Positions 1 to 64,000 of a stretch of DNA of 64,000 bases are shown here, piece by piece; the stretch's first letter is position 1; each line of letters opens with the position of its first letter. The notes below the pieces were generated by a model. The model saw only the letters and a program-made list of their open reading frames with translations. It searched no databases and was not told where the DNA came from. The position numbers and the translations under genes were made by a program. Source of the stretch: Loxodes magnus (taxonomy: Eukaryota; Ciliophora; Karyorelictea; Loxodida; Loxodidae). The stretch lies in the NCBI GenBank assembly GCA_946699065.1, contig CAMPDV010000135.1:248001-312000 (forward strand), written 5' to 3'.

Positions 1-3000
1 CTATCTCAAATACTTACTTTTCCAGATGGTTGCTTGGGACCATCATATACTGGAGTTTAATTAAAATTGTTCAAGGAGTATAAGAAACAAAATATTTACT
101 AAGAAAAGCTATCTAATTACTTTGAAATTGATTAAATATACTAAGATATTAGTAAAGCTAAGCTAAGTTTTGTATTTTGGTTTAAGATTCAAGTAATAGA
201 CACTCAAAACTAATAGACTATTTTGAAGTTTATAGGACCAACTGATCAGCATATGGAGATTAACCAAAACTAAAATATAATATAGTTTTCATTGAGTGAC
301 GACTAATTAGTAGACTAATATCTATTTGAAGTAAATACACTATAATGGATATTTATGTCTTTAGATTTTACTTTTAGCTAAAACTCTTAAACCTTAAATT
401 TTAATATAAAGGAGTGAAATTAAAATAGACCTTAAGGAGTATAACTTGATATATCTGATTTTGACTTTGATATCTTTGATATCTTTGATTATATAGAAAT
501 AAGCGGAAATAATTAAAATACCTTTATTGACTATTTTGATTTCAGGTTAACTTATGGAGCTATTTCGTAAGAAGATCCCATACTTTTAGAATTCTTTATG
601 GAAAATTAGTGCTAATGCCCCAATTCTTGCTTAGGACCAGTTGAATGCAGTATTGAAGATTTAACTTGATATTAAATAACTAATATAGGATTTGCTAAAT
701 CTTTGGGATATGAATAGAGAGCAAAAATACTGAATTACTAGAAATAATTCCTAGATATAGAATATTCTATCACAGTTTGATTTAAATAAAGCTAATATAT
801 AGATGCTTAAATATTGAAAGTATAAGTAGATACTTGATAAATATCTTTCCAAATTAATAGCTAATAGCAGGTAGCATTATTAGACAGTAACTAATAGTTA
901 ATTCAAAGTTCTGATTATAAGATTAAGATTAATACTTGAACTTTATTAATTTTTAGATTTTCTGTATATAGATAAATTATTTCAACTGTCTTCTTAGAAA
1001 ATTTGAATTTAAATTATAGTGAACTAATTGCATGATAATAGGAAGTAAAGGCTTTTAAAAACAATGATACTATTATAGTGGGATATAACGATTAAGCACT
1101 TTAATAAAATAACTATGCAATAGTTTATGATGCTAAGTATTTTTCTACTTTCTTAACATATTCACAAATATTCCAACTTTAATAAGCAAACATACTTGAT
1201 TGTAACCAAAACGCTAATCAAGAAGGAAGTTATTGACTTATTGGCCTAAAGAATTGCCCAACACCATAAATAATGAACTGTTAAAACAGGTTGTAAGCAA
1301 ATTCTTAGTGTCTTAGTACTTGTGAGCCAGGGTTTACTTTGATTGAAAAGGATTGCATAAAATGTAGTTCTCATTAAGATAGATGCTAATATATCAACTC
1401 AGTTTTCATTCCAATTACTTGCTAATAAGGCTATTACTTAGATCAAACTTCTAAAGAGTGTGTGACAACATGTTTAATAGGATATTTCATCAAAAATGGA
1501 GAGTGCTAGAAATGTCCTTCTAATTGTTAAGAATGTCTTTAAGAAGATGAATGCGTTTCATGTAGTTCTGGCTATCTTTCTCCATATTTAAATGAATGTG
1601 TTGAATCATGTCCTTCTGGATGATAAGTTCAAGATTCTAAATGTCAATAATGCCCATAATTTTGTGAAGAGTGTTAAAATGGATAATGCACTTCATGTAA
1701 AGACCCAAATCTATTTCCTCCAGATTGTAATTGAAACTATGGTTTAAAATATTCATATTGGGCTTCCTCGTTATAAGATTATAATTGCTCTACTAATTTT
1801 AGTGTATAGTAGATAGAGAATAAAAGCAATGCCACTTAATCCTAAGTTAATAATTCCCAATGCTCAAATTTGTGTAATGAATGCTTAGGAAATTCCATCC
1901 TTTAATGTAAAAATTGCTTAGACACACTTTATTCCTACTAAAATCAGCCAACTTTTTGTGTTTGCTCATCTCCAAATGTATTTGATTTTACAACTAGTAG
2001 CTGTAAAGAAATATAGGATAAATAAGTATATTATAACTATTAATTTGAGAATCCTATTTACAAATGATAGTGAAGTTACCTACAAATAGAAAATACTTAG
2101 AAAAACTCTAAATACACAATATTTGATACCATCAAATCCATAGTAATCCCTTCTATTTAAAATTGCTACTTTCACTTTACAGTTTTTGTATAGTTTAAGT
2201 AGCAAAATTCCTACAGATTCAATTTCTATTCTAACTCAGATTGTTTTAATGCTTATCTAACTGATAGACTATATTTAATCACTAACAGCAACTAAATTAG
2301 AGTTAATTACTCAATGGAAGTATAGAAGTGATATTTAGTGGGAGTAACTATTAATGCCAAGCAATAAATTATGGGAATATGTGTGAAATGGTCAGAGTTA
2401 TAAGGCGAATGCTGGTATTAGTATTTCCTTACTTTGCAACAATAAGCAATTAATCAAATTTCATTTTAATCAAGTAACGAAATGAGTGTTATAAACCCTC
2501 AGTTTTCTACTAAGGACATGGTTCTCAATATATATGATATGGAGTATATTTGGTATCATAATCCATGCTAACTAGGATGTGGTTTTAAATGCAGTTCAAC
2601 TGATATAGAGTCTACTTAATGTAATTGTGGACAAAACTATTCTTATTGTAGTGACAATCAGTTTATATGCAAAGATCCCTAAGCATATTCTTTTAATTAG
2701 GAATAGTAGTATCCTTGTAGATGTAATGAAGGATATGTCTTAGATTACCAAAATATTTGTAGCAAATGCTAAAATAATGTGGGAGCATGCAAGTAATGGG
2801 ATTAGCAGTGTTCGGAAATACCTTAAGAGGCAAATGTTGCAATAAGAAATCTACTTTGGCTAAAATATGATCTAAATAACGTAGATATCTTATAAAGCAA
2901 CCAAGTCACACTTACAGTTTATTTGAGAACTCTCATTTCTATTTAAACTAATATCTTATAAGCCTTTAGTATGTAAGGAAGCGATGTATTAGACGAAATT

Positions 3001-6000
3001 ATAAAGATAAGCATTCAAGGCAGCAATTTGACTCTTAAAGTAAAGAATTATGATCATTATTAAACAAATAACATTTCAACATCAATTAAGCCTTCAACTA
3101 ATAACATGCTTATAACTCAATGGTATTTCATTTCTATTAGCATAAAACTTCCACGCTTAAGATTTTGCTATGCAATTAAAAGTGGATGTGGCAAGTGTCA
3201 GGATTTGCATTTGAGAGAACTATAAGATTTATAGGTATAATATTGGTTTTTAAAGACAGCTATCTTAAAAGAAAGCTTATAAGGTAAAAGTTTGGAATTA
3301 AAGGAATTACTAGATTAGTAGTATTTTTATGAAGCCAGATATATAAAGTAGTTGGTATACTTAACTCCATAAGATGCAGATTTTAAAAATAAATATTCAG
3401 ACTGTTACTTAAAGCAAACTACTTATTGTGATAATAATGATCCAAGATTAAATACTACTCTAAGGCAGCTTCTTTCTGCTTGCTAATTTCCAGCATGTAG
3501 ATTGTGCACAGCTCAATCTTGTATTGAATGCGGATTTAATGCTTATTCAATTTACTCTGATGGATAGAATGTATAATGCTAATGTAATTAAGAATACATG
3601 CTACTAGACAACTAATGCGTGAAAAGTGATACATCTTGCTAAAAGGAAAACTGTGACTTAGATTTGAGTGACAAAGAATATTGAATAGGTAAAGGATGAA
3701 ATAAACTATCAGATATGGATTTAGATAAAGGTTTGAATTCTAAGATAATACTTGATGAAATTAAAATTAACAAATCATTTTCCTTTATAGCTTTCATAAA
3801 TGTGTAAGATTTATAGCAATCAGATGATATTTTCCATATATATGACTAGCAACCAATATTACTCAATCTTTCCTATTAGTACTAAGACATGTAGCAAACT
3901 ATTTATCTCACACATTTAACTTAGTAAATAACTGTCAAAACTCTAATCAAACCAAATTTATATTACATTCTATTTTTTTCCTTCAATCTATCAAACACCT
4001 GGAAAGTATGCCTTCTCCCTGATGATTAAAATTGCTTGTAGTGCTATGAAGGAGTACTTTCAATAAATAGTCTCGTAGGAACATATAAAATATAAGTTAA
4101 CTCTGGAAAAATAAGAACAGGTAAGGCTTACTATAATACTAAGGAAATAGACTTCTAGTAAGGCAATGGTTAAGTTTTTAGATAATATAACGTAGAGTGC
4201 TTGATGAATGAGTAAATAAGTTAATGTAAGAAGGATTTCTATAATATAAGTTTAGTTTACAATTTGAATTTAAGTTATTCGCTTGAATAATTATATTACA
4301 CCAACTACTACTTCCTATGCAATTATTTATAAGAAGCCTTCTACTTTTAAATCTTCTTTATCAGCACAAATGATTACATGACATTTGATCTCTTTTAAAT
4401 CCAAGGAATAGTAAAAGTATCTTTATCTAGTTTCCAAATTCTAGTAGCTGTCTATAATCAAACTTACACAACTCCACTTATAGTTCCTTAAGATGTGCTT
4501 GGAATCAGTATTGATTTGATAGACCTAAGGTAGCTTAGAATATGCTATATCAATCTTTAGAAGAACGAAAGATGCTGAACAATACAAACAAACATTGCAA
4601 TAAATATCTCAAATTTCAACAGATCATAGAAACTAACTACCTATTAACTACAGCAAAGCTACATTCCACTTTAGCTAGATTTCTGATTAAACTAAACAGA
4701 TTTACACTAATTAACTAAATACGAAGAAACAAAACTCTATTGTGATATTCATATTTCCATATAAGCATATACATACAACTGTGCCCAAGTAGACATTAGT
4801 CCTATCATTTTAGGCAACTTCAACCAATTTTAATTTGAAACTATCGAAATAACAAATCAAGAATTAAGCTAATTAGGAGTGTCTTTCTGGTTTTTAAACA
4901 GATACTAATAATCGCTAATAAAGGAAGTTTTAAGAATCTAAAATTAAGTTTAGCAGATATAAGTAAACTAAATTCTTGATGACCAATCAATGCTCTAGAT
5001 TAAGCTTTAAACTGCTGATTAAAGCCAAATCATTTTATAAGATAACTAAATTTAAACTAAATACACATGGGAATTCCTCTATTTGTGCTTTTAAGTTCCA
5101 TAGCAGTAGATGTATGTTATAAGGAAGTAATGAAATACCAATAAGATATTTTAAATTCTTACTTAAATTGATGCAATTCAGAACTTCTCACTCAATTCAC
5201 AACTCTATATAGGAAATGTTATGCTTCACAATATGCAGCTTTACACTATAGGCTGCTTCTCACCTTAAAACATTGCTCTATAAACTTTAAGGAGCAGATT
5301 TGCCTCAAATTGTACTTTAGGCCCATACAATTAAGATTGCGAGCTATATTAAAATAATACTTTAATGGCTAGATATGAGTTGACTCACTAGCACGATTCT
5401 ATATTTCTCTTTAATAAAACAATCTAGTGAAATACACTAGAATTTAATATCAGAGTCAATGTTGAAAAAGTAGACTATCAAGATATCACATACACTGTCT
5501 GGCTTAAATATTTAGATACTCCTTTTGCTGGAGATAGAGTTATTTTTCATATGTCTAGTAATCTTTTAAATTCCAGCTTTCCTGGTCACAAACTACCTAA
5601 AGTTTATATGAGCAGTTAAAAAAACTATATAATGGAGCTTACTAATAATAAAGGAGAAGACTTAATTATTGAACTTGTTAGTGACGTTCAAACTTAATAG
5701 CCACATTTCTTAGTAATGCAAATCTGTAGAAAGAGCAATTTAGCTGGTTTATGCATTTCTTCATATAATAATTGAAACTTGAAATGTAACTTTGTAAGCT
5801 TATAAGAGAACGAAATTCCTGTAATAGATTAGTTGAGAGGGTACAAAGTAGTGTTTAGTAATTAAAACAACCCTTATTATGGATTTTTAACTCATTTATA
5901 GTTATTCTAGCACTGCTTGATAAATTAGCAACTTTAAACCATTTATAATTAAAAACAATGTGCCCAATAGTGCAAAGGAAAGTGCTTTGGAAATGGTAAT

Positions 6001-8399
6001 AATGACTGCTTAGAGTATTAGCTTATGATTGACTCCACTGATTAAATTATAGAAAATTCGGTAGTGTGAAAGCATTAAATGTTTCAGTATTTTTTCTCAC
6101 TTAACTAAGAATTCTCTGTAAGCTTCTGGATAAAAATAGAATAGCTAACCCAAAAGGCTTAAATCCTTAAAATAATAGACCGAGATATTGAAATAGTTCT
6201 ATTGCAGCTATCAAGTACTAGCATTAACTTTACATGTATCGAGTAATAAGGAAATTAAGCGTTTAACTTAGTATACAATAGTTGAATTTTCATTAACGTT
6301 AATATTTGAAGTTAATAAGGAGCTTAAAAATGCTCTCTTGAATATTTGAATCTGCTAACTAACTAAATTTAGGAAGACTAAGTTTTGTAGCTTTCTCATT
6401 CTTACTAAGTTTATAAGCTTGAACTTTATTTTCTATCTGATTAATTAAAAGGAAGCATAAAGAACGCCAAGATATATGACACAGGAGTAAGATTAAGTGA
6501 ATATAATAAATATAACTTTAATACTAGCTATTTGATTTAAAGTACTCAGCATTGCTCTACCTTTGATAAATCTTAATGCACACTCTGTGAGAATGGCTTT
6601 GTTTTAATAAATGATTATTGTTACGCCTGCTATTTTATGCTAGACCAATGTAAGGTAGTTTCAATAAATTAATAAAGTACAGGCTATTGTCTTTAAGGGT
6701 AATATGAGCAAGATAAAGACTGTGTCGATTCTGATTTATGTAGATTTGGAACTTACCCTGATAGAGATGCTAGAAAATGTGCAAATTGTGATATTTCATG
6801 TGAAGGATGCATTAGTTTAAAAGAATGTCTGACTTGCAAAGCTAAGTATTTTATGCTATCAAACAATACAAATCAAAATAATCTTGTTACCAAGACTTGC
6901 GTACTCAACTGTGGTTAGGGTCTTTTTGGAGATTAACTAACTTGAACTTGCAAACCATGTGAATATATTCTTTGCTAAAACTGCTAGTATGAAGCTAATA
7001 GATGCTATGACTGTAAAAGAGGGTTCTATAATCCTACTGTATAAGAATCATTTTACTGCTAATGTCCTGCAGATCAATGCTAGAGTGGATTCGATTGTAT
7101 ATCGAAAAATTGTGAATCTAATTGCTCTTTATTCTAAGAGAAGCTAGAAGGAAATCCTATATTATTGAATGATGATAGCTATAGTACCTTTTACGAAAAT
7201 GTTAATATTACATCTATGATAAAAGTCTTAGGAGATAGAACTATCAGTAAAGGCTTTTCTTTTATGACCTGAATTAAGTTAGAAAATGTTACAAGAGCTG
7301 AACAAAATATATTTGGATTAGTTTAAGAAAAATAATAATTTAGCATTAAAATTAAGACTGATACTTGGTTCTTAGTAGTAGAAATTTAAAACTAGGCTAT
7401 ACTAATCTAAAGGCAGCTTTCAGTTAGTAATATAACTGGAAAATGAACTTTGATAGGAATCTCTTTTTGCCCTTATGTTAGTGATAGATTTAACAATTTT
7501 TAAATATTTGCTTTTGTTGAAGACAAGCTATGCCCTTATGAAATTAAAGTTCCTCTTTAAGTTATTTTTCAAGTTAATCTAAATACTAAGATACATCTAG
7601 GAGGAATATTTACAAATACTTTCTAAGGATATTTACTCATGAGTTAACTGTTCCCAGATGGAAGATGTTCTTTAAAAATTAAGAACTTACAGTATAGAAA
7701 ATTAAATACTCCATGTAATTAGAATTGTAAAGGCTTCTGCCTTTTATCTTAGCCTAACATGCAATCTTGTAAATAATTATCTTGTGCCTTACCCAATAAT
7801 TATGATGCTAGTAAGTAGTATTTAAATTTCACTGATCTATCATATGCTGAAAGTTTTGATGTCACAAAATAGAAAAGCTTCAATTTAAAAAGTTAGTTGT
7901 ACTAGGGTGGATGAACTATAAGCATTTGATTTTATTCCACCTCACCTGGATAAATTTCTCTTTTTAGCATAAAATCTTTGGAGAGTGGAAATAATAACTT
8001 TACATATGCATAACTAACCTACAATTTTGTGACTTATTAGCTAGTCTTTAGATATAATTAAGACTAATAAGTTACTTTTAACTACTAAGTAATAGATGTA
8101 GGAATATGAAATTTAGTAATGGTCACTTGGACTAAAAATGAATTCAAAAATATTAAAGACGAAGCAGTTAATCTAAGAATATGCTTCAGCAGATACAGCT
8201 CTTGCCCCATTTGCTAGGATTAAAAGTTGGCTTTTACATAAATGAAGTAAAATTCGTTACTATTAATAGGTTCTTAGTAAAACTATTCGTTTAGTGGTTA
8301 AATTCTTTCAGGAAGGATATATTCTGAAGCTCTTTTATCTACTGATTTAAGCCTTATATAGCCTACTAGTGTTATGAAGTATTATATGGAATATTCTCC
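1..8399 (+). repeat. Tandem duplicate, left copy (matches 55605-64000)
   Basis: Bases 1-8399 align with 55605-64000. The offset is 55604 at the start and 55601 after one in-frame 3-bp deletion in copy 2 near base 244. No other indel was seen. Substitutions are concentrated in the first 1.9 kb and are sparse afterwards. Both copies keep the reading frame. The duplication continues past the right window edge and does not include the 4 kb upstream of 55605 as far as this window shows, because copy 1 starts at the left edge. Confidence 0.95.
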
Positions 8400-11300
8400 C
8401 TGCTAAACGTATTGTGAAACTGGTGTGTGTCTATAATATCAGCCAGATACAGGATTTTGCGTTTACTGAGTAGTTCATAGTTTCTTCTTATCTTAAGCTA
8501 CTTATACCAGTAGCACCTACAAAGCAACTGATCCTTTATTCCTTAAAGATAACTTTAACTCTTAAGCATTTTCTGTCTTTTTCTAGGCAGATTTTCAATA
8601 AAATCTGAATGATTTAGTAGATGTAGAATTTGCCAAATTTGTGAATCAAGCTGGAATAATTTCAAGAATAGGCTTTCAGAACTAAAACATTTATGCAGAA
8701 GTTTAGCTGCAAGATAAAGTGGAAAGAATTTCCCTTAAATAATAGAATCTCTATTAGGGATATTATGGATTAGGATATGGCGTATCTTACCAAAATTAAG
8801 CGTAGAATCTAATTTTATGTGCAGTTAAGTTCAATTACTCTGACTATGAATGCGAGTAGGTGGCTTTGACTAGCAAAACATATAGTTTTAAAGAGCTTAG
8901 TTCTAACATATTTTAAATTACTGCCTAAGACTTGATAGGTATAACTGACTTATACTATCTCTCACATACTAGCTTGGATAAGATGCAGCTTATATAAAAT
9001 ATATACAATTCATCTTCATGCTATCAGGCATGCAGAGATAAATGCTTTGGACCTGAAGCATCCTCTTGTTCCAAATAAATAGTGAAGAAATAAGAGTTTT
9101 CAGGATAATTTTATTATGAGTAGGAATTTGCTGAGTTCTAGTTCACTAGAATTAATCACTTTGCTATAGTTTTGTGGTAAGTTGATGAGATTATAACAAA
9201 GCAGGAATCAGTCTCACTCTTAATAAAAGACAACGATGAGGAAAATATAGTACTGACAGTTAGGAAATAGAATGACTATTTTGTTAATTCTTTGTATATT
9301 AAAGATTAACTTATTTAAGACTTTGGAAAAATACTATTATCAGTCTGGAATTTTGTAGCTGTCTCCATTTGTGATTAGGCTATAATATTAGCAAGTTCAA
9401 ACTGACCTGATAACACTTTGGAAATACATGAGATTTCTTTTCCTAATTCAACTGGAGGTATTAACAGCCAGAGCTCTTTCCTATATTTAGGCGGAAATAG
9501 TGAGAGAAGCAGTGCTTAAAAGAAATAGGGAAAGATGAACGAAGTCAACTTCTTTTACTCAGGATGCTTAAATAAATAATAAATTAAGAAAGTCTGACTA
9601 AATACTAAGCAATGTGGATAATTGTGCAATAATTGCTTTGGTCCATTTGATTAGGATTGTACAATTGATTATGCAGAGTAGTATTAAATTACTGGTAAGC
9701 ATGTTGCTCTCTCCTTATATTCCGAATCATAAATTCAATACTTAGACTAAAAATTCAATCGTTAAACCCTAGACTGGAATGACTATTCACTTACTTTCTG
9801 ACTTAGGCCATTTAAATTAAACAGTAAAGTGAAGAATGTTTTAAAACTAATGAATGGCTAATAGACTGTATCCTTATATAATTAAGATGGAACCTATATC
9901 TAAAGAGTTGAACATAAATCTCAACAGTTTCAAACCTAAATACAGAATGAACTTAGAGTCATTGAAGAGAAAGAATAGTTACTAGTTGTTTAGGTATGTA
10001 GCTCTGCTTCCTACATAAAAATGATTCAGACTGATTATTTAAAGAGTTATTATAAAGTAGATGCTAGCCAATTAGATTCAAATGTTTAGTTTTAGTCTAA
10101 AAATTCTTAGATCTGATTATCAGCAGGTTAGCAATTCTAAGGATATGCTGCTGATTTAAGAATTTGGAAGGGATGCTTAAGATCTGCTTAAATCGAACAG
10201 TTAGTGGAAATTACAAAGTAAGAATGCTCTTCTAGATGTTAAAAGACCTGCTTTGGAGTTACTAATAGAGAGTGCAGTGAATATGTGAATCTATTAGACT
10301 TAAGATACAGCTCTACTGATATTATGTTTGCTTCATAGTTTAATGATTTCATTTTTATAGGCTAAAACTTTGAATAAATAAGAAGGGAAATATACCCTCT
10401 CTGTGATTGGTCCATCACTTTCTGAATTAAGTTATAGTATGCCCTTGCTAATGATAAAATATTCAAGATAATTTCAGGATTTCAAAAGTTAGAAATATTT
10501 TCTCTTAGCATAGTAAAGATATGTAAAACCTGCTTAAGCTAGTTTGAAATAAGTATTAAGTAAAGTTTTTATCTGAATAAGACAATCTTTTATTCTGAAA
10601 AATATGAAAACATATAAGGAGTTTGATTTTTCTTTGGATTGACAAATAAATTTGAATAAGAATTTTTCCTTTTCTTAAAATAGTCTACAAGTAATTCTCA
10701 AGAGGTAAATATTTTGCGTTCAAGTTCTTATTTTTAATAAGGAAAATCTCTGTCAAGTGATTGCATTAACGCTTAGTAAGAAAATTACCTGCAATTATAT
10801 ATATTTGGGAGCGATGAGAATGAAGAGTCTAGTAGTGGTTTTACATATGATATTCGTTTATATTTGTAGATCTTATCAATAGACCAGTATTTGCAAATCT
10901 TTAGCACCGTTTAATGTACGGATAACTGCAAGACATGTAAAGATATGATTTGCTAAGAATGTTTATCGGGATTCGTGTTTTTCATGGGTTAATGCATACA
11001 GTGTTGCTTCTCTACAAATGAATGTTTCGATCTGTCTTGTGATGACCTAATGAGTTGCAAAGCTGGATTATTTAAATAATATAACTCAGTTTTAAAAAAG
11101 TTTGACTGTGTAAGCAAATGCAATAGTGGATTTGTATAGAATGAGTAATTAGGAGAATGTGTATGCTCATATTGTAAAAATTCCTAAGATTAACCTTAAA
11201 TTCTCTATGTTGTATCAGAATAAAATTATAATACAAATGCTCAGCAACTAAGAGATTAAGATAATTTCTTCTCTTCATTGTTTTAAGCCTTAAATTCAGA

Positions 11301-14300
11301 TTTGGTTTCATAATATACTATAGTATATCTATCAAAGGAGATTCATAATTTTTAGCCTGAGGGAAATTTAACTTCTCCTTTACTAGATAAAAACAAGAAA
11401 ATATCTAAACCTTATGATATTCTCAATATAACAACCCATAATTGTTAGGGAAATTGGAACTAAATAATGTGTCCTTAGAATTCACAATAACAGTATCCCA
11501 AAATAGAAGTTTTAAACACAAGCGTTACGTTTGATATAAAGGGGCTAAGATTAGTCAATATTTCGTATGTAACTTTTAGTGGTTACTAGCTAAACTAAGA
11601 CCAAAGCGGCTTCTATAAAGATTGCTTTCCCTTGCTATTCTAAATATCTAATATTGAACTTGAGGATAACTAAATGAACTGTAAGGTATTTGAAAGAAAC
11701 TAGTTTATAACAGTAACTGAAAAAGCATCTTTATTCCTATACAATGTAGTAATCTAAGATTTTAGAATTTAGTATTAGAACTATATTTATGTAAAAGATG
11801 CTGCTGTTATAGCAGAACTTACTAGATTCACTAACTTGGAAGCAAGTTAAACTATAGTTAAATATGATTCCTGTGATTGTGACACTGACAGTATTTGTAG
11901 TTGTTGAAACAATTTCATACTTTAGCAAAGTACTGTTGAACGTATAAATTATAAAGTAAAGCAGTAGAAGTTCTAAATCATGCATGGCTTCATATAAGCA
12001 GACTATATGGAACAAATTATTATAGAATCTTCTTTATTTTAAGATAATCAAGTCCTTTAAGATAGCTTGATCTTGCTAAGTCAGAGCAATAGCATTCTAA
12101 TAAAGGGAAGTTCCTTTTTGAGAAATGAAGGAGATATGATATAGATAGATATTAAGAAGGATATGCAGAGTTCTATTTTAGTTTTAGATAATCAAGTTTA
12201 AGATAATATTGGCAGCATTTCCTTCTTACTAAACAATCCTAATACAAACTTGATAGTTAAAGGACTTAACTTTACCAACAATACAGGAAACATCAAATTT
12301 GAAAGCTAATTAGAAAAAGCTCCTTCTGCTTCTGTCATAAACGTAAGCTTTACTAAAAACACAGCTAGTTAACTACTCTTATCTTCTAACTTATATGCTA
12401 TGTGACTAGAATCCCTATACTTTTAGGATAACAAAGGAACTAGTTTAGACATAAGAAGTACTAATCTTACAATCCTGAAAAGCTTCTTTAATAATACAGG
12501 AAATATAGCTCTGAAAGCAATTTAGAAGGTAGAAGTAATAGATTCTTAGTTTTATAAGTGTAAAGGGAATTAAATCTAAACTAGTATGATGAACATCTAT
12601 AATTCTAATTTTAGTGACAACCAATAAGAAAAAGGTGGAGCCATTTAATTCATGTAAGATCTCCAACTTAACATTTTCAATTCCTCTTTTTCCCTTAATA
12701 AAGCAACACAAGGAGGAGTCTTTTATGGGACTTTTATTAATCTCAACATATCAGACTCCTACTTTGATAAAAACTCAGCAGACTATGGAGGAGTATTTTA
12801 GATTTAGTCTTCCTTAATCTCTTAATAAACTGCTTTGATTTATATTGAAAACACCATTTTTAAATCTAATCAAGCGTAAATTCAAGGAGGTGGAATTTAC
12901 ATAGTAGAAGATTCATAGAAAAGGATTCTGTAAATTAGCAATTCCTTCTTTAATAGCAACTATGCTTCAAGAGGCTCAGCAATTTTCATGGATTCCATTT
13001 AACTTGAAAACTCTTTTATAGAAAAAACCCATTTTGAAAATAACTCAGGAAATAGGGGTGTTCTTTCAATAAAGATAAACGGGGTACTAAAGTTATATGA
13101 GAACTACTTTAAAAGCAATATCTTGAATGGAGTTTCCTGCATCGAACTAATATAATCAAAACTAGAAATATGGGAGTCTCATTTTTATAGCAACTAAGAG
13201 CAAATTTCTATTTTTGCTTAAAACTCTTCTTTAAAAATAAAGTACTCTGTATTTAAAAATAATAGCGGGTCTTGTCTAAGTCTATACTAAAGCGATTTAG
13301 ACTGTGGTGACTCTCTTTTTGAGGAAAACAATGGTCTTTAAGGAAGTGTTATATATGCTAATACCTATTCTAACTTAAGATTTTATGATTCCATTGCATC
13401 TAAAAATAGTGCAGTTGATGGTGCTGTTTTTGCAATAATACAGAACTCATTTATAAATATAAGCGGATCAAGTGTAACTTATAACAAAGCGTCTTAAATT
13501 GGAATCATTTATTTAGAAGCATAAAGCTCAGCCTTTATAAGCAAATCTGCTTTTTAGTTCAATGTTGCTAGTATCGCCTCATTTCTATATATGCTAGGAT
13601 GCTAAAACGAGACTATTGTAGTAAACTCCATTATTTCTGATAACTAAGCCTCCTAATCTACTGTGTAGGCATTTTTATCTAACTTTAGACTATAGAACAC
13701 TTAAATGGGCAATAATGAGATAATTAAGGAAAGCAAGAAAGAAGGAACGCCTGGAATTTTTATGGATTTTGCCTCAGCAAATATATAAAACAGCTAGTTT
13801 TATAATCACACTGCATATAAAGGAGATTTTTTCTATTCCATAAATAGCAAACTTTACATATCAAACTCATAAATATAAGCAAAAGGAGTTTCAATTTACT
13901 TAATAAACTCATAGTTTTAAGCTAATCATACTATTTTTAAAGAAATGCAAGCTGAAGCTATAATAGGATCAAAAAGCTAAGTATAGATGAAGAATTGCAT
14001 GTTCTATGAAAGCATTAGTAAAGTTCCTATTTTATATTTTGAAAATAGCGAAATTGATAGTAGCGATAATATCTTCGAAAACTGTACTGATATCTTTTAT
14101 TTAGCTCAGTGTAACGCTACTGTTAATCATAGCGTTTTTATTAATTCTAACAGATCTATTTATAGCTTAGATCACAAGCAACTAGTTATTTAGCATTCTC
14201 TCTTTAGCAACAACACTGCTAAAGTAGGAGGATGTTTATACCTAACAAATAGTAGAAAGGAGCTAATAAACACTTACATTCTAAATACCATTTTTGATTC

Positions 14301-18228: not shown

Positions 18229-18327
18229 AATTCCTTTACTTAAATAATTTAAATTGTCTGATTGAGATTTTTATTAATAGAAATATCTCAAAAGAGCAAT
18301 ATAATATACATTAAAAGTATCTCTAAT

Positions 18328-42055: not shown

Positions 42056-42059
42056 CTAA

Positions 42060-44786: not shown

Positions 44787-44829
44787 AGAAGCTAAACTCT
44801 AAACATTTAAATATATTATTATTATTATT

Positions 44830-45514: not shown

Positions 45515-45717
45515 ATTATGACTAAGATTAATCCTTTTGGGAAGAGACTTATTGCAAGAAATTTTCAATTTTTCCCATATAATAGAACTTATTTATAGTG
45601 AACAAAGTAATAAGTAAGTGAGTAAATGGCAGAAACTTAGCAAATGAATTATTACATAATCTGAGAGTGTATGAATATATTTGAATCTTACTTTATACAA
45701 GATACCTTAAATTTAAG

Positions 45718-51438: not shown

Positions 51439-51525
51439 GCTTATAAAGCGTAAGCTTCTGCTGTAGTTGCCGAAGGTTTAATTAATAAATAATTTAAATT
51501 AAGAAAGTCTTTCTAGCTATTTAAG

Positions 51526-51560
51526 CATTTAATTAAGAGATATACTCTCTTAATTAAATG
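51526..51560. repeat. Perfect 15-bp inverted repeat upstream of giant-gene copy 2
   Basis: Arms CATTTAATTAAGAGA (51526-51540) and TCTCTTAATTAAATG (51546-51560) with the five-base spacer TATAC. It lies 33 bp before the chosen start codon, inside the short gap between the upstream ORF and the giant gene. It could be a regulator-binding palindrome or form an RNA hairpin in a short 5' leader. Confidence 0.7.
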
Positions 51561-51593
51561 GATTCTTAATTTGTTAGTTATATTTTAAATAAA

Positions 51594-54500
51594 ATGTGAC
51601 TTTAACTTTTGCTATTAGCTTCTCTTATCTCTTTGTCACTACAAGATGCGAAAGATTTAATAGCTGGAGATTAGATAATTTAATATTCTGATTCTTTTAG
51701 AAACTAGGAGATTACTTTAAATTCAAGTTTTAATCCATAATCAGTTGATGAATGTTGGCTTGTCACTCTATATTTTAAGCTTGAATTATCACCAATAGAC
51801 TTGGCAAACTGTTACTGTAATAGGTAATGCAAGAACTAGATTTTATTTGAAATTAATGGAACCTATCGAAGATATTAAATTTCATTTAATTAAAGTTAAT
51901 ATAGTATGAAAGTAAAATTTGCTGTAAAACTCTGATCACTTGATGTGAAAGTGGTAGAATCAGATTAAATAGAAGGGATTTGACCTAAAAATTGATATTT
52001 TGCTTAAATATCTTTTAATAATAAAGGACATATAATTCTCAAATTCTAGCATTTAGATAGTTTTGGCTAAGCTGTATAAACTGAAGATTTATAAATTGAA
52101 AGTTGATATTTTTTATAACTTTAAGAAAATAATAAGTTTATATTTGCTCCAACAAGATGCATTTTTCATTATTGTGATAACTTTACAAACTTCAATGGAT
52201 ATATATTCAAACCTAAATTCTATAATAATAATGATTGTGCTTTTAAAGAATTCTAAGAATGGAATTATTAATGAACTAATAATTATATAACTTTCGTTGA
52301 TGGTCTATTTTACTCTGACAGCACAATTTATTAGCCTTTTAAGTATTTATAAGATTACAACTATGACTCAAGTCTTTATTCTTGAAAAGCTTATAGTTTA
52401 AGTGGATTTATTAAGCAAACAGAATGTGAAGGAGATTATAGAGCAATTATGGAGATCATAGATTAAAATGATTTAACTTATTTTGGATGGTTTACAAGGT
52501 ATCCTTCAACATCATAATTGGAATTTTTATATTATTCCGCACCAGTAAATTGTGGTTAAACAACAAATTACATATTTATCAGATCTCTTGACTAAGCATG
52601 CAACTCATGGCTATTTTTTTCTCTCTCATTCTATTTTAATAGTTCAGGTTATAATTTCTAGATATGTAATGGAAAAATGAAGGATTAGGCTAGTATGGAA
52701 TGTGATTCTAAATAATATACATAAAATAAAGAAGTTGCTTGGCTTTAAATATAAAAGAATCATAAAATTAAAATTGGAAGAATTAATAAAGCAAACAGTC
52801 TTTATTACACAGGATATATGTATAATATCAAATTTTATACTAACAACTAATTATTTACAGAAGCTTAAATGAAATAGCAAAATAGTGTTACTTTTAACCC
52901 TTGATTACAAAACCCTTTTAAATAAATCATTAACCTTTTTCAAACTAACACAAAATATTTCATAGGAACTGAAGATGCTACACAAAGAAATTTGACTGAT
53001 ATTTATTTCTCAAATTATTTAAGTCTGACAACTTGGATCAGAATTGAACATTATGATAAAGATAATTTTTGCTTAGATGATACTTATCATAATATAGAAG
53101 TTCTATGCTTGGTAGATTAAAATCAAAACAACTGCAGCCCAAACTAATTTATATTTAAAATAGTTAATCATTTAAAAAATCCTCCCTTTATACTAATAAA
53201 TTAGCTAGGCATAGATAAATACAAAAAAGACTTAACTTTTGAAATTTCCAATAAATGGATATTTATTTATTTAGGTTTAGATTTTTAAAGTAACTAAATC
53301 ATTTTGAAAATACAAGACTATAGAAAATAATCCATATACTAAGATTCATAATCATTTCAATTAGCTGCGTGAAATTTCTAGTCTTCAAAAATTTTATTTG
53401 GAGTTAAAAATTTAGAGTAGTGCGATTAATAATTAATAGGAGCAGTTCATCGTTACTAACTATTAACTGAAAGCCTTCTAGATGATGATTAATTTAATAT
53501 ATAATTTGAAGAAGGTCTTTAAACTACTGAAGGTATATATGGACCATAATTTTTAGGCTATCTTCAGTATTATCAGCTCACCGATGAAGACTATGCTTTG
53601 ACAATAAAGTAGAACTATCAAATAAACTCTATAGTATTTTGGGATAAAGCAATTACATTTGATGAGTATACTTTAATATTCTGAATGAAGTCATTTATAA
53701 ATACTACTTCCACTATATTCAAATTTATTTAGAACTCTATTACAATTCTTAGCTTAAACTAAGATTTACAATCTAACAGCTATACACTCACTTATGGATC
53801 AGCCTAGATATAATTCACTGCTCCACAAAACTAAACAGTATTTTACGCTATAAAAGCATGTAAAGCTTTTAAAACAGTAAGCTTATGATATGATAATCTA
53901 TTTGATGATCTAAAAGTTTAGAATCTATTTAGCAAGAACTTAACTGAAATAGTAACTTTAGATCTATCTAAGCTTCAAATAATCTTTAGTACTGAAAATT
54001 AAATCCAAGCAAACATAACTAATTTTAAACTTTATTTTGGCTGTTTAGATTATTTCTAGATGAATCAGATGCTTATGGATAAATCATGCTCCAAAAGCTG
54101 CCCTGGTACTAATCCAATTAATTGCACTGGCCCATCGGATTACGAATGCTAAAATTATGTTTAAGAATTTCCTTAAGAAAGACATAAAAATAACAGTTTA
54201 TCATGCATAAATGACTATATCAGATTTAATCTAAATGGAGTTAAATAATGCATTAAATGCTAAGAAGGAGCTTCATGCATTTGCATAAATATGACAAAAA
54301 GTATAAGCTAATATAGAAATAATCTTTATAAGGAAAAGTTTTTAGATTAAAGTTCAATTTACTAAAGCTATAATCCTACAGGCTAAGTATTTTAACCTTA
54401 CTTAAATATGAAGGATTCTTAGGTTGAAAATGCTTAAGGTATTTCACATATATTTTGAATAAAACCTGAATAAGGAGTTTTGATATTTTAGCATAATTAT

Positions 54501-57500
54501 GCAGACAATTAAGATATTTAATGAACCAAAATAAACTATAAGTTTACCAATCAAAGTAATTTCCTTTTAATGGAAGCTAAAATAGTATGATTAAGCAATT
54601 AATAAATTGTAAATAAACTTTAATTTTTAATTTCTCACTAGATAAACTTTTTTTACATATAGACCTCGATTTTTAGTTTAGAAGGATCTTCATAAATTAA
54701 GATCTGCGTTATTCAATATAACTTGAACAAAGCCTGCCTATTGTAAAGCTTTGGACACGATGTATTCTTTTAAATATCCAAATAAGATTCCATTATAATA
54801 AGTAGGGATAATTCACTTATTTCAATCTATTAGCCTACTTTTTATTTAGTTATGGGAGATAATAGTAAAGTATTTATTGAAAACTAGCTGATTTATGATT
54901 ATGTGACTCAATTTGCCTAGCAAAACTTCTAAGATACTATTTAATAAATACCTTATATAGACAGCAGCTAAAATATATGAAGCAGTGAAATGTTTTATAG
55001 TTAAGATGGTAATCCTTAATATATAAAGCTACCTTCCTAGAAATACTTGTAAATAAAGTATAATTAATTACTTAATAAAAACATTATTATGCTAAAACCT
55101 TCATTTTCAGTTTCCTTATGAGTAGGAATTTCCTAGAGCTTTATTAAAAAAGGAGTATAGGTTACGATAATTAGCTTTAATGACTCTAGTTGTGGAAAAA
55201 TATTTACTATAAGAGCATCGCACTATTAGCAATTACTTTAGGTAAAGAGTTCATGCTAGAAAGAATATTTTCTTTATAGCTACTTCTAAATAAATCGCCC
55301 AGGATATTACAAATTTGCAGCATCAAACTACCATTTTTTTGAATAAAACATATCATCCTTTGAAATGAATTTGTGTGTTTCTAATTGAGATTATACGAGA
55401 AAGTAATGTGTTAGGAAATAAGTTTATGGTGCTGTTCCTTGTAACTTAAAGCCAAGTTAAGATTCAAATATATTAATACTAGGAGATTTAGATTCTAGCT
55501 ATAGCATAATTAGATCTTTCGATTCATTAACTCTTTGGCCTTATTAAGGTAGAAGAGGTTAGGAATTATTGGATAATCCTTATTAGACTGCATGCTAATT
55601 CTTCCTATCTCAAATACTTACTTTTCCAGATGGTTGCTTGGGACCATCATATACTGGAGTTTAATTAAAATTATTCAAGCAGTATAAGAAACAAAATATT
55701 TACTAAGAAAAGCTATCTAATTACTTTGAAATTGATTAAATATACTAAGATATTAGTGAAGCTAAGCTAAGTTTTGTATTTTGGTTTAAGATTCAAGTAA
55801 TAGACACTCAAAACTAATAGACTATTTTAAAGTTTATAGGAACTGATCAGCATATGGAGATTAACCAAAACTAAAATATAATATAGTTTTCATTGAGTGA
55901 CGACTAATTAGTAGACTAATATCTATTTGAAGTAAATACACTATAATGGATATTTATGTCTTTAGATTTTACTTTTAGCTGATACCCTTAAACCTTAAAT
56001 TTTAATATAAAGGAGTGAAATTAAAATAGACCTTAAGCAGTATAACTTGATATATCTGATTTTTACTTTGATATCTTTGATATCTTTGATTATATAGAAA
56101 TAAGCGGAAATAATTAAAATACCTTTATTGACTATTTTGATTTCAGGTTAACTTATGGAGCTATTTCGTAAGAAGATCCCATACTTTTAGAATTCTTAAT
56201 GGAAAATTAGTGCTAATGCCCCAATTCTTGCTTAGGACCAGTTGAATGCAGTATTGAAGATTTAACTTGATATTAAATAACTAATATAGGATTTGCTAAA
56301 TCTTTGGGATATGAATAGAGAGCAAAAATACTGAATTACTAGAAATAATTCCTAGATATAGAATATTCTATCACAGTTTGATTTAAATAAAGCTAATATA
56401 TAGATGCTTAAATATTGAAAGTATAAGTAGATACTTGATAAATATCTTTCCAAATTAATAGCTAATAGCAGGTAGCATTATTAGACAGTAACTAATTGTT
56501 AATTCAAAGTTCTGATTATAAGATTAAGATTAATACTTGAACTTTATTAATTTTTAGATTTTCTGTATATAGATAAATTATTTCAACTGTCTTCTTAGAA
56601 AATTTGAATTTAAATTATAGTGAACTAATTGCATGATAATAGGAAGTAAAGGCTTTTAAAAGCAATGATACTATTATAGTGGGATATAACAATTAAGCAC
56701 TTTAATAAAATAACTATGCAATAGTTTATGATGCTAAGTATTTTTCTACTTTCTTAACATATTCACAAATATTCCAACTTTAATAAGCAAACATACTTGA
56801 TTGTAGCCAAAACGCTAATCAAGAAGGTAGTTATTGACTTATTGACCTTAAGAATTGCCCAACACCATAAATTAACGAATGCTTAAATAAATAATAAATT
56901 GATTCTTTATGCTTTAATAGCTGTGAGCACGGGTTTACTTTGATTGAACAGGATTGTATAAAATGTAGTTCTCATTAAGATAAATGCTAATATATCAACT
57001 CAGTTTTCATTCCAATTACTTGCTAATAAGGCTATTACTTAGATCAAACTTCTAAAGAGTGTGTGACAACATGTTTAATAGGATATTTCATCAAAAATGG
57101 AGAGTGCTAGAAATGTCCTTCTAATTGTTAAGAATGTCTTTAAGAAGATGAATGCGTTTCATGTAGTTCTGGCTATCTTTCTCCATATTTAAATGAATGT
57201 GTTGAATCATGTCCTTCTGGATGATAAGTTCAAGATACTAAATGTCAATAATGCCCATAATTTTGTGAAGAGTGTTAAAATGGATAATGCACTTCATGTA
57301 AAGACCCAAATCTATTTCCTCCAGATTGTAATTGAAACTATGATTTAAAATATTCATATTGAGCTACTTCGTTATAAGATTATAATTGCTCTACTAATTT
57401 TAGTGTATAGTAGATAGAGAGTAAAAGCAATGTCACTTAATCCTAAGTTAATAATTCCCAATGCTCAAATTTGTGTAATGAATGCTTAGGAAATTCCATC

Positions 57501-60500
57501 CTTTAATGTAAAAATTGCTTAGACACACTTTATTCCTACTAAAATCAGCCAACTTTTTGTGTTTGCTCATCTCCAAATGTATTTGATTTTACAACTAGTA
57601 GCTGTAAAGAAATATAGGATAAATAAGTATATTATAACTATTAATTTGAGAATCCTATTTACAAATGATAGTGAAGTTACCTACAAATAGAAAATACTTA
57701 GAAAAACTCTAAATACACAATATTTGATACCATCAAATCCATAGTAATCCCTTCTATTTAAAATTGCTACTTTCACTTTACAGTTTTTGTATAGTTTAAG
57801 TAGCAAAATTCCTACAGATTCAATTTCTATTCTAACTCAGATTGTTTTAATGCTTATCTAACTGATAGACTATATTTAATCACTAACAGCAACTAAATTA
57901 GAGTTAATTACTCAATGGAAGTATAGAAGTGATATTTAGTGGGAGTAACTATTAATGCCAAGCAATAAATTATGGGAATATGTGTGAAATGGTCAGAGTT
58001 GTAAGGCGAATGCTGGTATTAGTATTTCCTTACTTTGCAACAATAAGCAATTAATCAAATTTCATTTTAATCAAGTAACGAAATGAGTGTTATAAACCCT
58101 CAGTTTTCTACTAAGGACATGGTTCTCAATATATATGATATGGAGTATATTTGGTATCATAATCCATGCTAACTAGGATGTGGTTTTAAATGCAGTTCAA
58201 CTGATATAGAGTCTACTTAATGTAATTGTGGACAAAACTATTCTTATTGTAGTGACAATCAGTTTATATGCAAAGATCCCTAAGCATATTCTTTTAATTA
58301 GGAATAGTAGTATCCTTGTAGATGTAATGAAGGATATGTCTTAGATTACCAAAATATTTGTAGCAAATGCTAAAATAACGTGGGAGCATGCAAGTAATGG
58401 GATTAGCAGTGTTCGGAAATACCTTAAGAGGCAAATGTTGCAATAAGAAATCTACTTTGGCTAAAATATGATCTAAATAACGTAGATATCTTATAAAGCA
58501 ACCAAGTCACACTTACAGTTTATTTGAGAACTCTCATTTCTATTTAAACTAATATCTTATAAGCCTTTAGTATGTAAGGAAGCGATGTATTAGACGAAAT
58601 TATAAAGATAAGCATTCAAGGCAGCAATTTCACTCTTAAAGTAAAGAATTATGATCATTATTAAACAAATAACATTTCAACATCAATTAAGCCTTCAACT
58701 AATAACATGCTTATAACTCAATGGTATTTCATTTCTATTAGCATAAAACTTCCACGCTTAAGATTTTGCTATGCAATTAAAAGTGGATGTGGCAAGTGTC
58801 AGGATTTGCATTTGAGAGAACTATAAGATTTATAGGTATAATATTGGTTTTTAAAGACAGCTATCTTAAAAGAAAGCTTATAAGGTAAAAGTTTGGAATT
58901 AAAGGAATTACTAGATTAGTAGTATTTTTATGAAGCCAGATATATAAAGTAGTTGGTATACTTAACTCCATAAGATGCAGATTTTAAAAATAAATATTCA
59001 GACTGTTACTTAAAGCAAACTACTTATTGTGATAATAATGATCCAAGATTAAATACTACTCTAAGGCAGCTTCTTTCTGCTTGCTAATTTCCAGCATGTA
59101 GATTGTGCACAGCTCAATCTTGTATTGAATGCGGATTTAATGCTTATTCAATTTACTCTGATGGATAGAATGTATAATGCTAATGTAATTAAGAATACAT
59201 GCTACTAGACAACTAATGCGTGAAAAGTGATACATCTTGCTAAAAGGAAAACTGTGACTTAGATTTGAGTGACAAAGAATATTGAATAGGTAAAGGATGA
59301 AATAAACTATCAGATATGGATTTAGATAAAGGTTTGAATTCTAAGATAATACTTGATGAAATTAAAATTAACAAATCATTTTCCTTTATAGCTTTCATAA
59401 ATGTGTAAGATTTATAGCAATCAGATGATATTTTCCATATATATGACTAGCAACCAATACTACTCAATCTTTCCTATTAGTACTAAGACATGTAGCAAAC
59501 TATTTATCTCACACATTTAACTTAGTAAATAACTGTCAAAACTCTAATCAAACCAAATTTATATTACATTCTATTTTTTTCCTTCAGTCTATCAAACACC
59601 TGGAAAGTATGCCTTCTCCCTGATGATTAAAATTGCTTGTAGTGCTATGAAGGAGTACTTTCAATAAATAGTCTCGTAGGAACATATAAAATATAAGTTA
59701 ACTCTGGAAAAATAAGAACAGGTAAGGCTTACTATAATACTAAGGAAATAGACTTCTAGTAAGGCAATGGTTAAGTTTTTAGATAATATAACGTAGAGTG
59801 CTTGATGAATGAGTAAATAAGTTAATGTAAGAAGGATTTCTATAATATAAGTTTAGTTTACAATTTGAATTTAAGTTATTCGCTTGAATAATTATATTAC
59901 ACCAACTACTACTTCCTATGCAATTATTTATAAGAAGCCTTCTACTTTTAAATCTTCTTTATCAGCACAAATGATTACATGACATTTGATCTCTTTTAAA
60001 TCCAAGGAATAGTAAAAGTATCTTTATCTAGTTTCCAAATTCTAGTAGCTGTCTATAATCAAACTTACACAACTCCACTTATAGTTCCTTAAGATGTGCT
60101 TGGAATCAGTATTGATTTGATAGACCTAAGGTAGCTTAGAATATGCTATATCAATCTTTAGAAGAACGAAAGATGCTGAACAATACAAACAAACATTGCA
60201 ATAAATATCTCAAATTTCAACAGATCATAGAAACTAACTACCTATTAACTACAGCAAAGCTACATTCCACTTTAGCTAGATTTCTGATTAAACTAAACAG
60301 ATTTACACTAATTAACTAAATACGAAGAAACAAAACTCTATTGTGATATTCATATTTCCATATAAGCATATACATACAACTGTGCCCAAGTAGACATTAG
60401 TCCTATCATTTTAGGCAACTTCAACCAATTTTAATTTGAAACTATCGAAATAACAAATCAAGAATTAAGCTAATTAGGAGTGTCTTTCTGGTTTTTAAAC

Positions 60501-63500
60501 AGATACTAATAATCGCTAATAAAGGAAGTTTTAAGAATCTAAAATTAAGTTTAGCAGATATAAGTAAACTAAATTCTTGATGACCAATCAATGCTCTAGA
60601 TTAAGCTTTAAACTGCTGATTAAAGCCAAATCATTTTATAAGATAACTAAATTTAAACTAAATACACATGGGAATTCCTCTATTTGTGCTTTTAAGTTCC
60701 ATAGCAGTAGATGTATGTTATAAGGAAGTAATGAAATACCAATAAGATATTTTAAATTCTTACTTAAATTGATGCAATTCAGAACTTCTCACTCAATTCA
60801 CAACTCTATATAGGAAATGTTATGCTTCACAATATGCAGCTTTACACTATAGGCTGCTTCTCACCTTAAAACATTGCTCTATAAACTTTAAGGAGCAGAT
60901 TTGCCTCAAATTGTACTTTAGGCCCATACAATTAAGATTGCGAGCTATATTAAAATAATACTTTAATGGCTAGATATGAGTTGACTCACTAGCACGATTC
61001 TATATTTCTCTTTAATAAAACAATCTAGTGAAATACACTAGAATTTAATATCAGAGTCAATGTTGAAAAAGTAGACTATCAAGATATCACATACACTGTC
61101 TGGCTTAAATATTTAGATACTCCTTTTGCTGGAGATAGAGTTATTTTTCATATGTCTAGTAATCTTTTAAATTCCAGCTTTCCTGGTCACAAACTACCTA
61201 AAGTTTATATGAGCAGTTAAAAAAACTATATAATGGAGCTTACTAATAATAAAGGAGAAGACTTAATTATTGAACTTGTTAGTGACGTTCAAACTTAATA
61301 GCCACATTTCTTAGTAATGCAAATCTGTAGAAAGAGCAATTTAGCTGGTTTATGCATTTCTTCATATAATAATTGAAACTTGAAATGTAACTTTGTAAGC
61401 TTATAAGAGAACGAAATTCCTGTAATAGATTAGTTGAGAGGGTACAAAGTAGTGTTTAGTAATTAAAACAACCCTTATTATGGATTTTTAACTCATTTAT
61501 AGTTATTCTAGCACTGCTTGATAAATTAGCAACTTTAAACCATTTATAATTAAAAACAATGTGCCCAATAGTGCAAAGGAAAGTGCTTTGGAAATGGTAA
61601 TAATGACTGCTTAGAGTATTAGCTTATGATTGACTCCACTGATTAAATTATAGAAAATTCGGTAGTGTGAAAGCATTAAATGTTTCAGTATTTTTTCTCA
61701 CTTAACTAAGAATTCTCTGTAAGCTTCTGGATAAAAATAGAATAGCTAACCCAAAAGGCTTAAATCCTTAAAATAATAGACCGAGATATTGAAATAGTTC
61801 TATTGCAGCTATCAAGTACTAGCATTAACTTTACATGTATCGAGTAATAAGGAAATTAAGCGTTTAACTTAGTATACAATAGTTGAATTTTCATTAACGT
61901 TAATATTTGAAGTTAATAAGGAGCTTAAAAATGCTCTCTTGAATATTTGAATCTGCTAACTAACTAAATTTAGGAAGACTAAGTTTTGTAGCTTTCTCAT
62001 TCTTACTAAGTTTATAAGCTTGAACTTTATTTTCTATCTGATTAATTAAAAGGAAGCATAAAGAACGCCAAGATATATGACACAGGAGTAAGATTAAGTG
62101 AATATAATAAATATAACTTTAATACTAGCTATTTGATTTAAAGTACTCAGCATTGCTCTACCTTTGATAAATCTTAATGCACACTCTGTGAGAATGGCTT
62201 TGTTTTAATAAATGATTATTGTTACGCCTGCTATTTTATGCTAGACCAATGTAAGGTAGTTTCAATAAATTAATAAAGTACAGGCTATTGTCTTTAAGGG
62301 TAATATGAGCAAGATAAAGACTGTGTCGATTCTGATTTATGTAGATTTGGAACTTACCCTGATAGAGATGCTAGAAAATGTGCAAATTGTGATATTTCAT
62401 GTGAAGGATGCATTAGTTTAAAAGAATGTCTGACTTGCAAAGCTAAGTATTTTATGCTATCAAACAATACAAATCAAAATAATCTTGTTACCAAGACTTG
62501 CGTACTCAACTGTGGTTAGGGTCTTTTTGGAGATTAACTAACTTGAACTTGCAAACCATGTGAATATATTCTTTGCTAAAACTGCTAGTATGAAGCTAAT
62601 AGATGCTATGACTGTAAAAGAGGGTTCTATAATCCTACTGTATAAGAATCATTTTACTGCTAATGTCCTGCAGATCAATGCTAGAGTGGATTCGATTGTA
62701 TATCAAAAAATTGTGAATCTAATTGCTCTTTATTCTAAGAGAAGCTAGAAGGAAATCCTATATTATTGAATGATGATAGCTATAGTACCTTTTACGAAAA
62801 TGTTAATATTACATCTATGATAAAAGTCTTAGGAGATAGAACTATCAGTAAAGGCTTTTCTTTTATGACCTGAATTAAGTTAGAAAATGTTACAAGAGCT
62901 GAACAAAATATATTTGGATTAGTTTAAGAAAAATAATAATTTAGCATTAAAATTAAGACTGATACTTGGTTCTTAGTAGTAGAAATTTAAAACTAGGCTA
63001 TACTAATCTAAAGGCAGCTTTCAGTTAGTAATATAACTGGAAAATGAACTTTGATAGGAGTCTCTTTTTGCCCTTATGTTAATGATAGATTTAACAATTT
63101 TTAAATATTTGCTTTTGTTAAAGACAAGCTATGCCCTTATGAAATTAAAGTTCCTCTTTAAGTTATTTTTCAAGTTAATCTAAATACTAAGATACATCTA
63201 GGAGGAATATTTACAAATACTTTCTAAGGATATTTACTCATGAGTTAACTGTTCCCAGATGGAAGATGTTCTTTAAAAATTGAGAACTTACAGTATAGAA
63301 AATTAAATACTCCATGTAATTAGAATTGTAAAGGCTTCTGCCTTTTATCTTAGCCTAACATGCAATCTTGTAAATAATTATCTTGTGACTTACCCAATAA
63401 TTATGATGCTAGTAAGTAGTATTTAAATTTCACTGATCTATCATATGCTGAAAGTTTTGATGTCACAAAATAGAAAAGCTTCAATTTAAAAAATTAGTTG

Positions 63501-64000
63501 TACTAGGGTGGATGAACTATAAGCATTTGATTTTATTCCACCTCACCTGGATAAATTTCTCTTTTTAGCATAAAATCTTTGGAGAGTGGAAATAATAACT
63601 TTACATATGCATAACTAACCTACAATTTTGCGACTTATTAGCTAGTCTTTAGATATAATTAAGACTAATAAGTTACTTTTAACTACTAAGTAATAGATGT
63701 AGGAATATGAAATTTAGTAATGGTCACTTGGACTAAAAATGAATTCAAAAATATTAAAGACGAAGCAGTTAATCTAAGAATATGCTTCAGCAGATACAGC
63801 TCTTGCTCCATTTGCTAGGATTAAAAGTTGGCTTTTACATAAATGAAGTAAAATTCGTTACTATTAATAGGTTCTTAGTAAAACTATTCGTTTAGTGGTT
63901 AAATTCTTTCAGGAAGGATATATTCTGAAGCTCTTTTATCTACTGATTTAAGCCTTATATAGCCTACTAGTGTTATGAAGTATTATATGGAATATTCTCC
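51594..64000 (+). CDS. Giant receptor-like surface protein, copy 2 (3' partial), with signal peptide
   Basis: The frame starts at ATG 51594 and is open to the window edge (4,135 codons). Residues 1-19, MWLQLLLLASLISLSLQDA, form a signal peptide in which Trp and Gln are TGA and TAA codons. An upstream in-frame ATG (51558) would put 12 extra residues before it. Then come lamin-G-like segments with Cys clusters (DECWLVTLYFKLELSP; CSKSCPGTNPINC at about 54.1 kb), reaching the part shared with copy 1 at 55605. From there domains follow copy 1 (furin-like repeats at about 56.85-57.6 and 62.15-62.75 kb). If the rest matches copy 1, the gene is about 22.2 kb and the protein about 7,411 residues. The signal peptide supports surface delivery with the Cys-rich part outside. 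Confidence 0.88.
55605..64000 (+). repeat. Tandem duplicate, right copy (matches 1-8399)
   Basis: Colinear with 1-8399, one 3-bp deletion relative to copy 1 and no frame disruption. Substitutions are most frequent before about 57.5 kb. A 60-bp stretch at about 56862-56935 is strongly diverged within otherwise near-identical sequence. Confidence 0.95.

Follow-up and report, generated by a model that had tools for sequence, protein, structure and literature searches.

Why does a 64-kb stretch of the Loxodes magnus genome begin and end in nearly the same sequence? An earlier sequence-only reading of this DNA proposed either a recent duplication of a giant gene or two haplotypes joined end to end during assembly. 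The window (the whole stretch of 64,000 bases analysed here, with a GC content of 26%) corresponds to positions 248001-312000 of contig C135, which is 707 kb long. It was compared with the rest of the contig and with the whole assembly (705.73 Mb in 7,843 contigs).

Three copies of the giant gene on one contig

BLAST alignment of window positions 1..8399 (plus strand, copy 2) with positions 55605..64000 (plus strand, copy 3) showed 99.2% identity from end to end, with 62 mismatches and three gap openings. MAFFT alignment of the same segments gave 66 mismatches and one 3-base gap. The view that the two ends are the same segment was thus correct. The match ends at window positions 1 and 64000 because the window itself ends there; when the window was extended and the rest of both genes was aligned, as had been proposed, the match went on beyond both positions.

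The genome-wide DNA search with window positions 1-8399 returned seven matches in all. Three of them were full-length and were all located on C135, at positions 201067, 248001 and 303605; the remainder were three partial matches (67%) on C149 and one short match on C888. The supposed pair of tandem genes is near-identical as described; however, the number two does not hold, since C135:201067-209462, upstream, is a third match to the segment. Extended comparison of C135:140001-400000 placed the gene-sized copies 1, 2 and 3 at about 197.7-220.1, 244.6-267.1 and 300.2-322.2 kb, each between different flanks. Pairwise identity is 97.4% for copies 1 and 2 (22.5 kb), 96.7% for copies 2 and 3 (22.0 kb), and 95.5% between copies 1 and 3 over 24.9 kb, part of which is flank. 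The repeat unit is about 34 kb, the genes are 22 kb, and the spacers between the coding sequences are 18-33 kb.

Gene limits and genetic code

Copies 1 (C135:197059-219291) and 3 (C135:299594-321829) each run from ATG to stop in one frame under code 27, and encode 7,410 and 7,411 residues, respectively. On the extended contig, both match the size given by the earlier reading, about 22 kb for the gene and 7,400 residues for the protein. Copy 3 occupies window positions 51594..64000 (plus strand) from its ATG onwards. Copy 2 starts at C135:237932, so that its 5' part lies left of the window; positions 1..18228 (plus strand) cover the remainder, which begins near residue 1336 in the numbering of copy 1 and ends with the TGA stop codon at 18226-18228. 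The distance from this stop to the ATG of copy 3 is 33.4 kb, as had been estimated (33 kb). An intron with a length that is a multiple of three is possible within the giant gene. The N-termini of copies 1 and 3 have a hydrophobic, signal-like stretch.

For the giant frame to stay open, TAA, TAG and TGA must all code for amino acids; copy 1 contains 414 TAA, 177 TAG and 69 TGA codons in frame. The karyorelict ciliate code (table 27) is reported to use TAA and TAG for Gln, and TGA for both Trp and stop (PMC11441545). In each of the three copies, the final in-frame TGA is located 72 codons ahead of the proposed stop, and the GC content drops from 28% before the stop to 19-21% after it. The TGA-free last 72 codons and the GC drop fit the published description of L. 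magnus stops, which includes TGA depletion ahead of the stop (PMC11441545). The shared coding sequence (21.6 kb) contains five gap entries at three sites, every one of them 3 bases long; whereas the gaps downstream of the stop are of many lengths.

LINE insertions, spacers and flanks

Both frames are intact within the window, as the sequence-only reading stated, but copy 2 as a whole is not. A 6,049-bp LINE (C135:238573-244621), 3.4 kb left of the window, cuts this gene after about 213 codons. The element carries RVT_1 and endonuclease domains and is bracketed by a perfect 15-bp target duplication; copies 1 and 3 do not have the LINE, and copy 3 has the duplicated stretch once. The last 4.6 kb of the element is 100% identical (rounded) to at least 30 other places, among the best 31 of 6,343 candidates scored. 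The insertion into copy 2 is therefore recent, since the target duplication is perfect and the match to other places is about 100%. Full-length LINEs have been reported as monoallelic insertions in L. magnus (PMC11441545), and the copy 2 LINE may also be present on one haplotype only. The likeness of about 100% to 30 other places is in itself a sign of very recent LINE activity.

The 33-kb spacer (18229..51593, no strand assigned) resembles the other units at its ends, mostly at 67-77%, and contains LINE sequence and interspersed repeats. The spacer LINE (35740..40189, plus strand; RVT_1 and Exo_endo_phos_2) is 90-93% alike to many copies elsewhere. A 0.7-kb interspersed repeat at 44862-45573 is 88-91% alike to dozens of places, and five copies of it, spaced 21-24 kb, were found on C1284. 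A short tandem repeat with a 19- or 38-base period is located at 34815-34944.

The flanks of the three units can be aligned in pieces on both sides of the genes. Upstream, 192.7-197.7 kb of C135 aligns with 233.7-238.6 and 295.4-300.2 kb; downstream, 219.9-226.8 kb aligns with 266.7-270.3 and 322.5-326.1 kb. Identity in the BLAST pieces is mostly 67-77%, and some parts are closer, up to 85%; upstream of copies 1 and 3 it varies between 58 and 90% per 400-column step. The upstream flank of copy 1 also has a UCH match and an F-box-like match; neither was found at E 0.01 on the plus strand in the matching flanks of units 2 and 3.

Two stretches of the spacer were also searched against the genome; each search scored about 40 out of over 8,000 candidates. 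Among these, window positions 18300-23467 matched C135 alone; positions 40300-51500 matched the copy 1 flank on C135, the interspersed repeat of 0.7 kb described above, and some small fragments. Outside interspersed repeats, no near-identical second contig was found for 18300-26000 or 40300-51500 among the best candidates scored.

Mosaic of identity inside the genes

Stretches of up to 1,902 bp are the same in all three copies. Between alignment columns 1,500 and 18,500, 30 of the 34 500-column steps showed at least 98% identity in all three pairs; the other four went down to 93-97%. The odd copy changes from tract to tract. In 500-column steps, copy 1 departs from the others by 22% at the 5' end; directly after it the odd one is copy 3, at about 20%. 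Copy 3 also differs from copies 1 and 2 at window positions 1272..1832 (plus strand), at 35 sites that are mostly in 1272-1328. Copy 2 is 12-21% off in four 500-base steps at 15088-17088, over the membrane domain. Runs of sites peculiar to copy 2 mark the corresponding tract at 15055..16982 (plus strand); it has a dS of about 0.4 and a dN/dS of about 0.25, and spans the Cys-rich linker and the membrane domain.

The 21,567 aligned coding columns contain 846 variable sites, which are peculiar to copy 1 (167), copy 2 (378) or copy 3 (293), or differ in all three copies (8). The longest single-copy runs are 76, 156 and 42 sites for copies 1, 2 and 3, respectively. The permutation maxima were 9, 15 and 14, and the observed runs were reached in none of the 2,000 permutations; this test shows the clustering of the sites and not its cause. 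The dS of the diverged tracts is mostly 0.4-0.6, with dN/dS of 0.25-0.47; one short diverged segment has a dS of 0.24-0.34 and a dN/dS of 0.35-0.50. Outside these tracts the dS is 0-0.07, apart from one 5' segment of copies 1 and 2 (dS 0.09, dN/dS 0.92). Comparison of copies 2 and 3 over window positions 1-8399 gave 42 codons changed in sense and 14 silent ones, which is near neutral. Because of this ratio and of the dN/dS of 0.92 between copies 1 and 2, relaxed or diversifying change is possible in parts of the genes.

The relative on C149 shares 342 and 345 of 524 residues with copies 1 and 3 over the copy 2 tract, and 326 of 524 with copy 2; it is thus slightly closer to copies 1 and 3 than to copy 2 in the membrane-domain tract. 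The abrupt alternation of near-identical and diverged sequence, with the odd copy changing by tract, is the pattern of a tandem array under gene conversion, and gene conversion is the cause that we infer for the mosaic.

Origin of the array

The locus is quite probably a real tandem array of three copies, which was duplicated long ago and later homogenised patchwise by gene conversion. A unit of about 34 kb with the giant membrane-protein gene would have undergone tandem duplication twice. The spacers would then have decayed and gained LINEs; whereas the coding sequence would have been kept by purifying selection and repeated gene conversion between the copies, from which some patches escaped. 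Copy 2 would have been broken by its LINE very recently. The tandem duplication looks old because the flanks are mostly 67-77% alike and the dS in the diverged tracts is mostly 0.4-0.6. The proposal of a recent duplication is therefore right about the duplication of the giant gene and not about its age; the near-identity looks like the result of later gene conversion.

An end-to-end join of two haplotypes is very unlikely. The copies differ by only 0.8% over window positions 1-8399, which is near the heterozygosity of 0.6% reported for L. magnus, and the Falcon assembly was described as not phased, with overlaps accepted down to 96% identity and Racon polishing (PMC11441545). However, the divergence of the flanks and the dS in the diverged tracts are far above a heterozygosity of 0.6%, and over 22-25 kb the divergence is 2.6% (copies 1 and 2), 3.3% (copies 2 and 3) and 4.5% (copies 1 and 3, some flank included). 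A join of two haplotypes also does not agree with the presence of three copies, with a LINE in copy 2 that is absent from copies 1 and 3, or with two spacer stretches (18300-26000 and 40300-51500) that have no near-identical second contig among the best candidates scored, interspersed repeats aside. An account in which the gene body alone was recently duplicated into old, unrelated sites, without conversion, is highly improbable. It would explain why the identity of about 97% stops near the gene ends; whereas the flanks on both sides still align in all three copies, and the odd copy changes between adjoining tracts, a pattern that cannot come from one fixed order of duplications.

The assembly itself might also have made the mosaic and the identical stretches, if the assembler or polisher switched between three real copies in mid-gene. 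Each copy spans 22 kb and is near-identical to the others in its interior; with 96% overlaps followed by Racon polishing, mid-gene stretches more than one read length from the unique flanks could have been switched or collapsed in a way that resembles conversion. The main diverged tracts, however, are near the gene ends: that of copy 2 lies 1.2-3.2 kb before the stop, and the 5' tracts are no more than about 1.4 kb away from the edge of the LINE. HiFi reads are usually 10-20 kb long. Reads of this length should therefore tie the tracts and the adjoining near-identical sequence to the unique flanks, and switching of this kind is considered unlikely. Within the preferred reading of an old array under gene conversion, a form of domain swapping is a doubtful further idea. 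Conversion would maintain a giant ectodomain common to the copies, whereas the N-terminal caps, and the channel-like membrane domain in two versions, would differ from copy to copy; the LINE-broken copy 2 would be a silent donor of its own distinct membrane domain.

Domain architecture of the giant protein

LamG-like modules are repeated along the protein. Among the pieces scanned, PF13385 matched with 55.8 and 41.5 bits (cut-off 27.6), and one further piece scored 21.1, below the cut-off. A custom LamG profile found 12 modules at residues 476-4957 of copy 1, all with scores that none of 20 shuffled proteins reached. In less strict rounds the number rose to 15-18, but these drifted into the kelch part, and 12 is the safer count. 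Cys-rich stretches are located at about residues 1800-2250, 3450-3750, 4950-5100 and 6300-6450. The stretch of about 1,200 residues ahead of the membrane domain looks by eye like a right-handed beta-helix; a Pfam scan at E 0.001 found nothing there.

The Cys-rich linker and about eight transmembrane helices are encoded at window positions 14995..16590 (plus strand), as suggested by hydropathy, family alignments and the genome family. The hydropathy profile has eight partly overlapping peaks in the membrane domain, a stray peak at residue 4446 and an N-terminal peak. The kelch beta-propeller, predicted to be cytoplasmic, follows at 17257..18225 (plus strand; PF24681, E 6.7e-24). PF24681 scored 84.9 bits (cut-off 50) and Kelch_6 41.9 (25.3); other kelch models were also above their cut-offs, and Kelch_2 was under its own. 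Hydropathy showed no GPI-type hydrophobic tail at the C-terminal; several helices are followed by about 600 residues with the kelch domain.

Judged from these sequence features, the protein most likely sits in the membrane. It would have a very long adhesive ectodomain (LamG-like and Cys-rich), about eight helices from a family that is possibly TRP-like, and an intracellular kelch propeller. The ectodomain is likely joined to a membrane domain of channel or receptor type and to an inner kelch scaffold; the protein probably binds or senses cells, prey or surfaces, and relays this inwards through the membrane domain to the cytoplasm. The topology, localisation and sensing role given here are all predictions.

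The membrane-domain family in the Loxodes genome

The suggestion of a variable family holds as far as the family is concerned, since the membrane domain belongs to a large one. An in-frame genome search with the membrane and kelch parts gave at least 42 matches, scored from 3,438 first-look candidates. Four of the 42 run through the kelch domain (the three copies on C135, and C149); the other 38 cover the membrane part only. Companions on the same contig were found for 19 of the 42, including C45 (4), C26 (3) and C72 (3), with strands sometimes mixed. The kelch-only search gave at least 58 matches (95 scored), most of which are probably other kelch proteins, and the LamG-region search, also in frame, gave at least 28 (37 scored).

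Some of these matches resemble the whole giant gene. The relative on C149 is 51-53% identical from residue 769 on, in the portion compared, and its single frame change may be a short intron. On the minus strand of C18, the LamG, membrane and kelch parts follow in order. On C10, LamG-region matches at 1199439, 1228727 and 1258011 have a period of 29.3 kb, and each is followed by a kelch match (1209595, 1238884 and 1268197); the third pair has a scored membrane match in between. C10:1199439-1269144 thus probably carries three further giant genes in tandem, with about 27% identity to the window gene over the LamG part. At least eight places (three on C135, one on C149, three on C10 and one on C18) look like giant forms with LamG and kelch parts, and two of these sets look like arrays of three.

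The TRP model PF06011 was also compared with the family. One of the eight aligned members, L036, was over the cut-off (30.2 vs 28.5 bits) across its TM region, and its TM domain is 36% identical to that of the window. The genome search with PF06011 gave seven matches, two of them over the cut-off and none on C135; two matches below the cut-off fall within family membrane-domain matches, on C22 and C45. The membrane domain is possibly channel-like (TRP); this weak link is a lead and not a result. The receptor role named in the sequence-only reading is likewise putative.

Directly after copy 3, C135:330214-384442 (L020-L025) contains a second triplicated array, in pieces of 8-11 kb with about 89-93% identity. 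Its first unit has an RIH_assoc match (RyR and IP3R homology), and a calcium-release-channel-like gene may have been tandemly tripled here. An inverted repeat at C135:365602-367840 has 843-base arms that are 99.3% alike and 553 bases apart.

Comparison with known systems

The giant genes appear to belong to known kinds, and their near-identity is best explained by gene conversion. What looked like an assembly artefact becomes an example on which gene conversion over genes of 22 kb can be tested; the ciliate is reported to be without extensive genome editing. The locus also points to a large Loxodes family of Cys-rich proteins with several TM helices. If homogenisation truly spares the membrane domain, this would bear on the diversification of such surface families.

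The Tetrahymena mating-type complex proteins MTA, MTB, MRC1 and MRC2 might be the nearest experimentally studied analogues. They are described as proteins of 92-212 kDa, with Cys-rich parts, many TM helices, and a pectin-lyase fold in MRC2 (PMC10901506). By description, the Loxodes protein is similarly a large ciliate membrane protein that combines Cys-rich parts of the growth-factor-receptor-like type with several TM helices; by contrast, it has about 7,410 residues, LamG-like modules and a kelch domain. Likeness to the fungal-type TRP channels of PF06011 was seen in the one family member; whereas the membrane domain of the window itself gave no match at E 0.1.

The surface antigens of Paramecium are GPI-anchored; whereas the Loxodes protein has about eight TM helices and a C-terminal kelch domain. 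GPI-mediated signalling is mentioned for these antigens, and their isogenes are, like the genes here, ciliate surface-protein genes duplicated on the same chromosome (PMC9788069). The tandem arrays of Trypanosoma brucei with gene conversion are also comparable, in that tandem duplicates may evolve together (PMC1855330); whereas the Loxodes units measure about 34 kb, each gene takes up 22 kb, and the coding sequences are separated by spacers of 18-33 kb.
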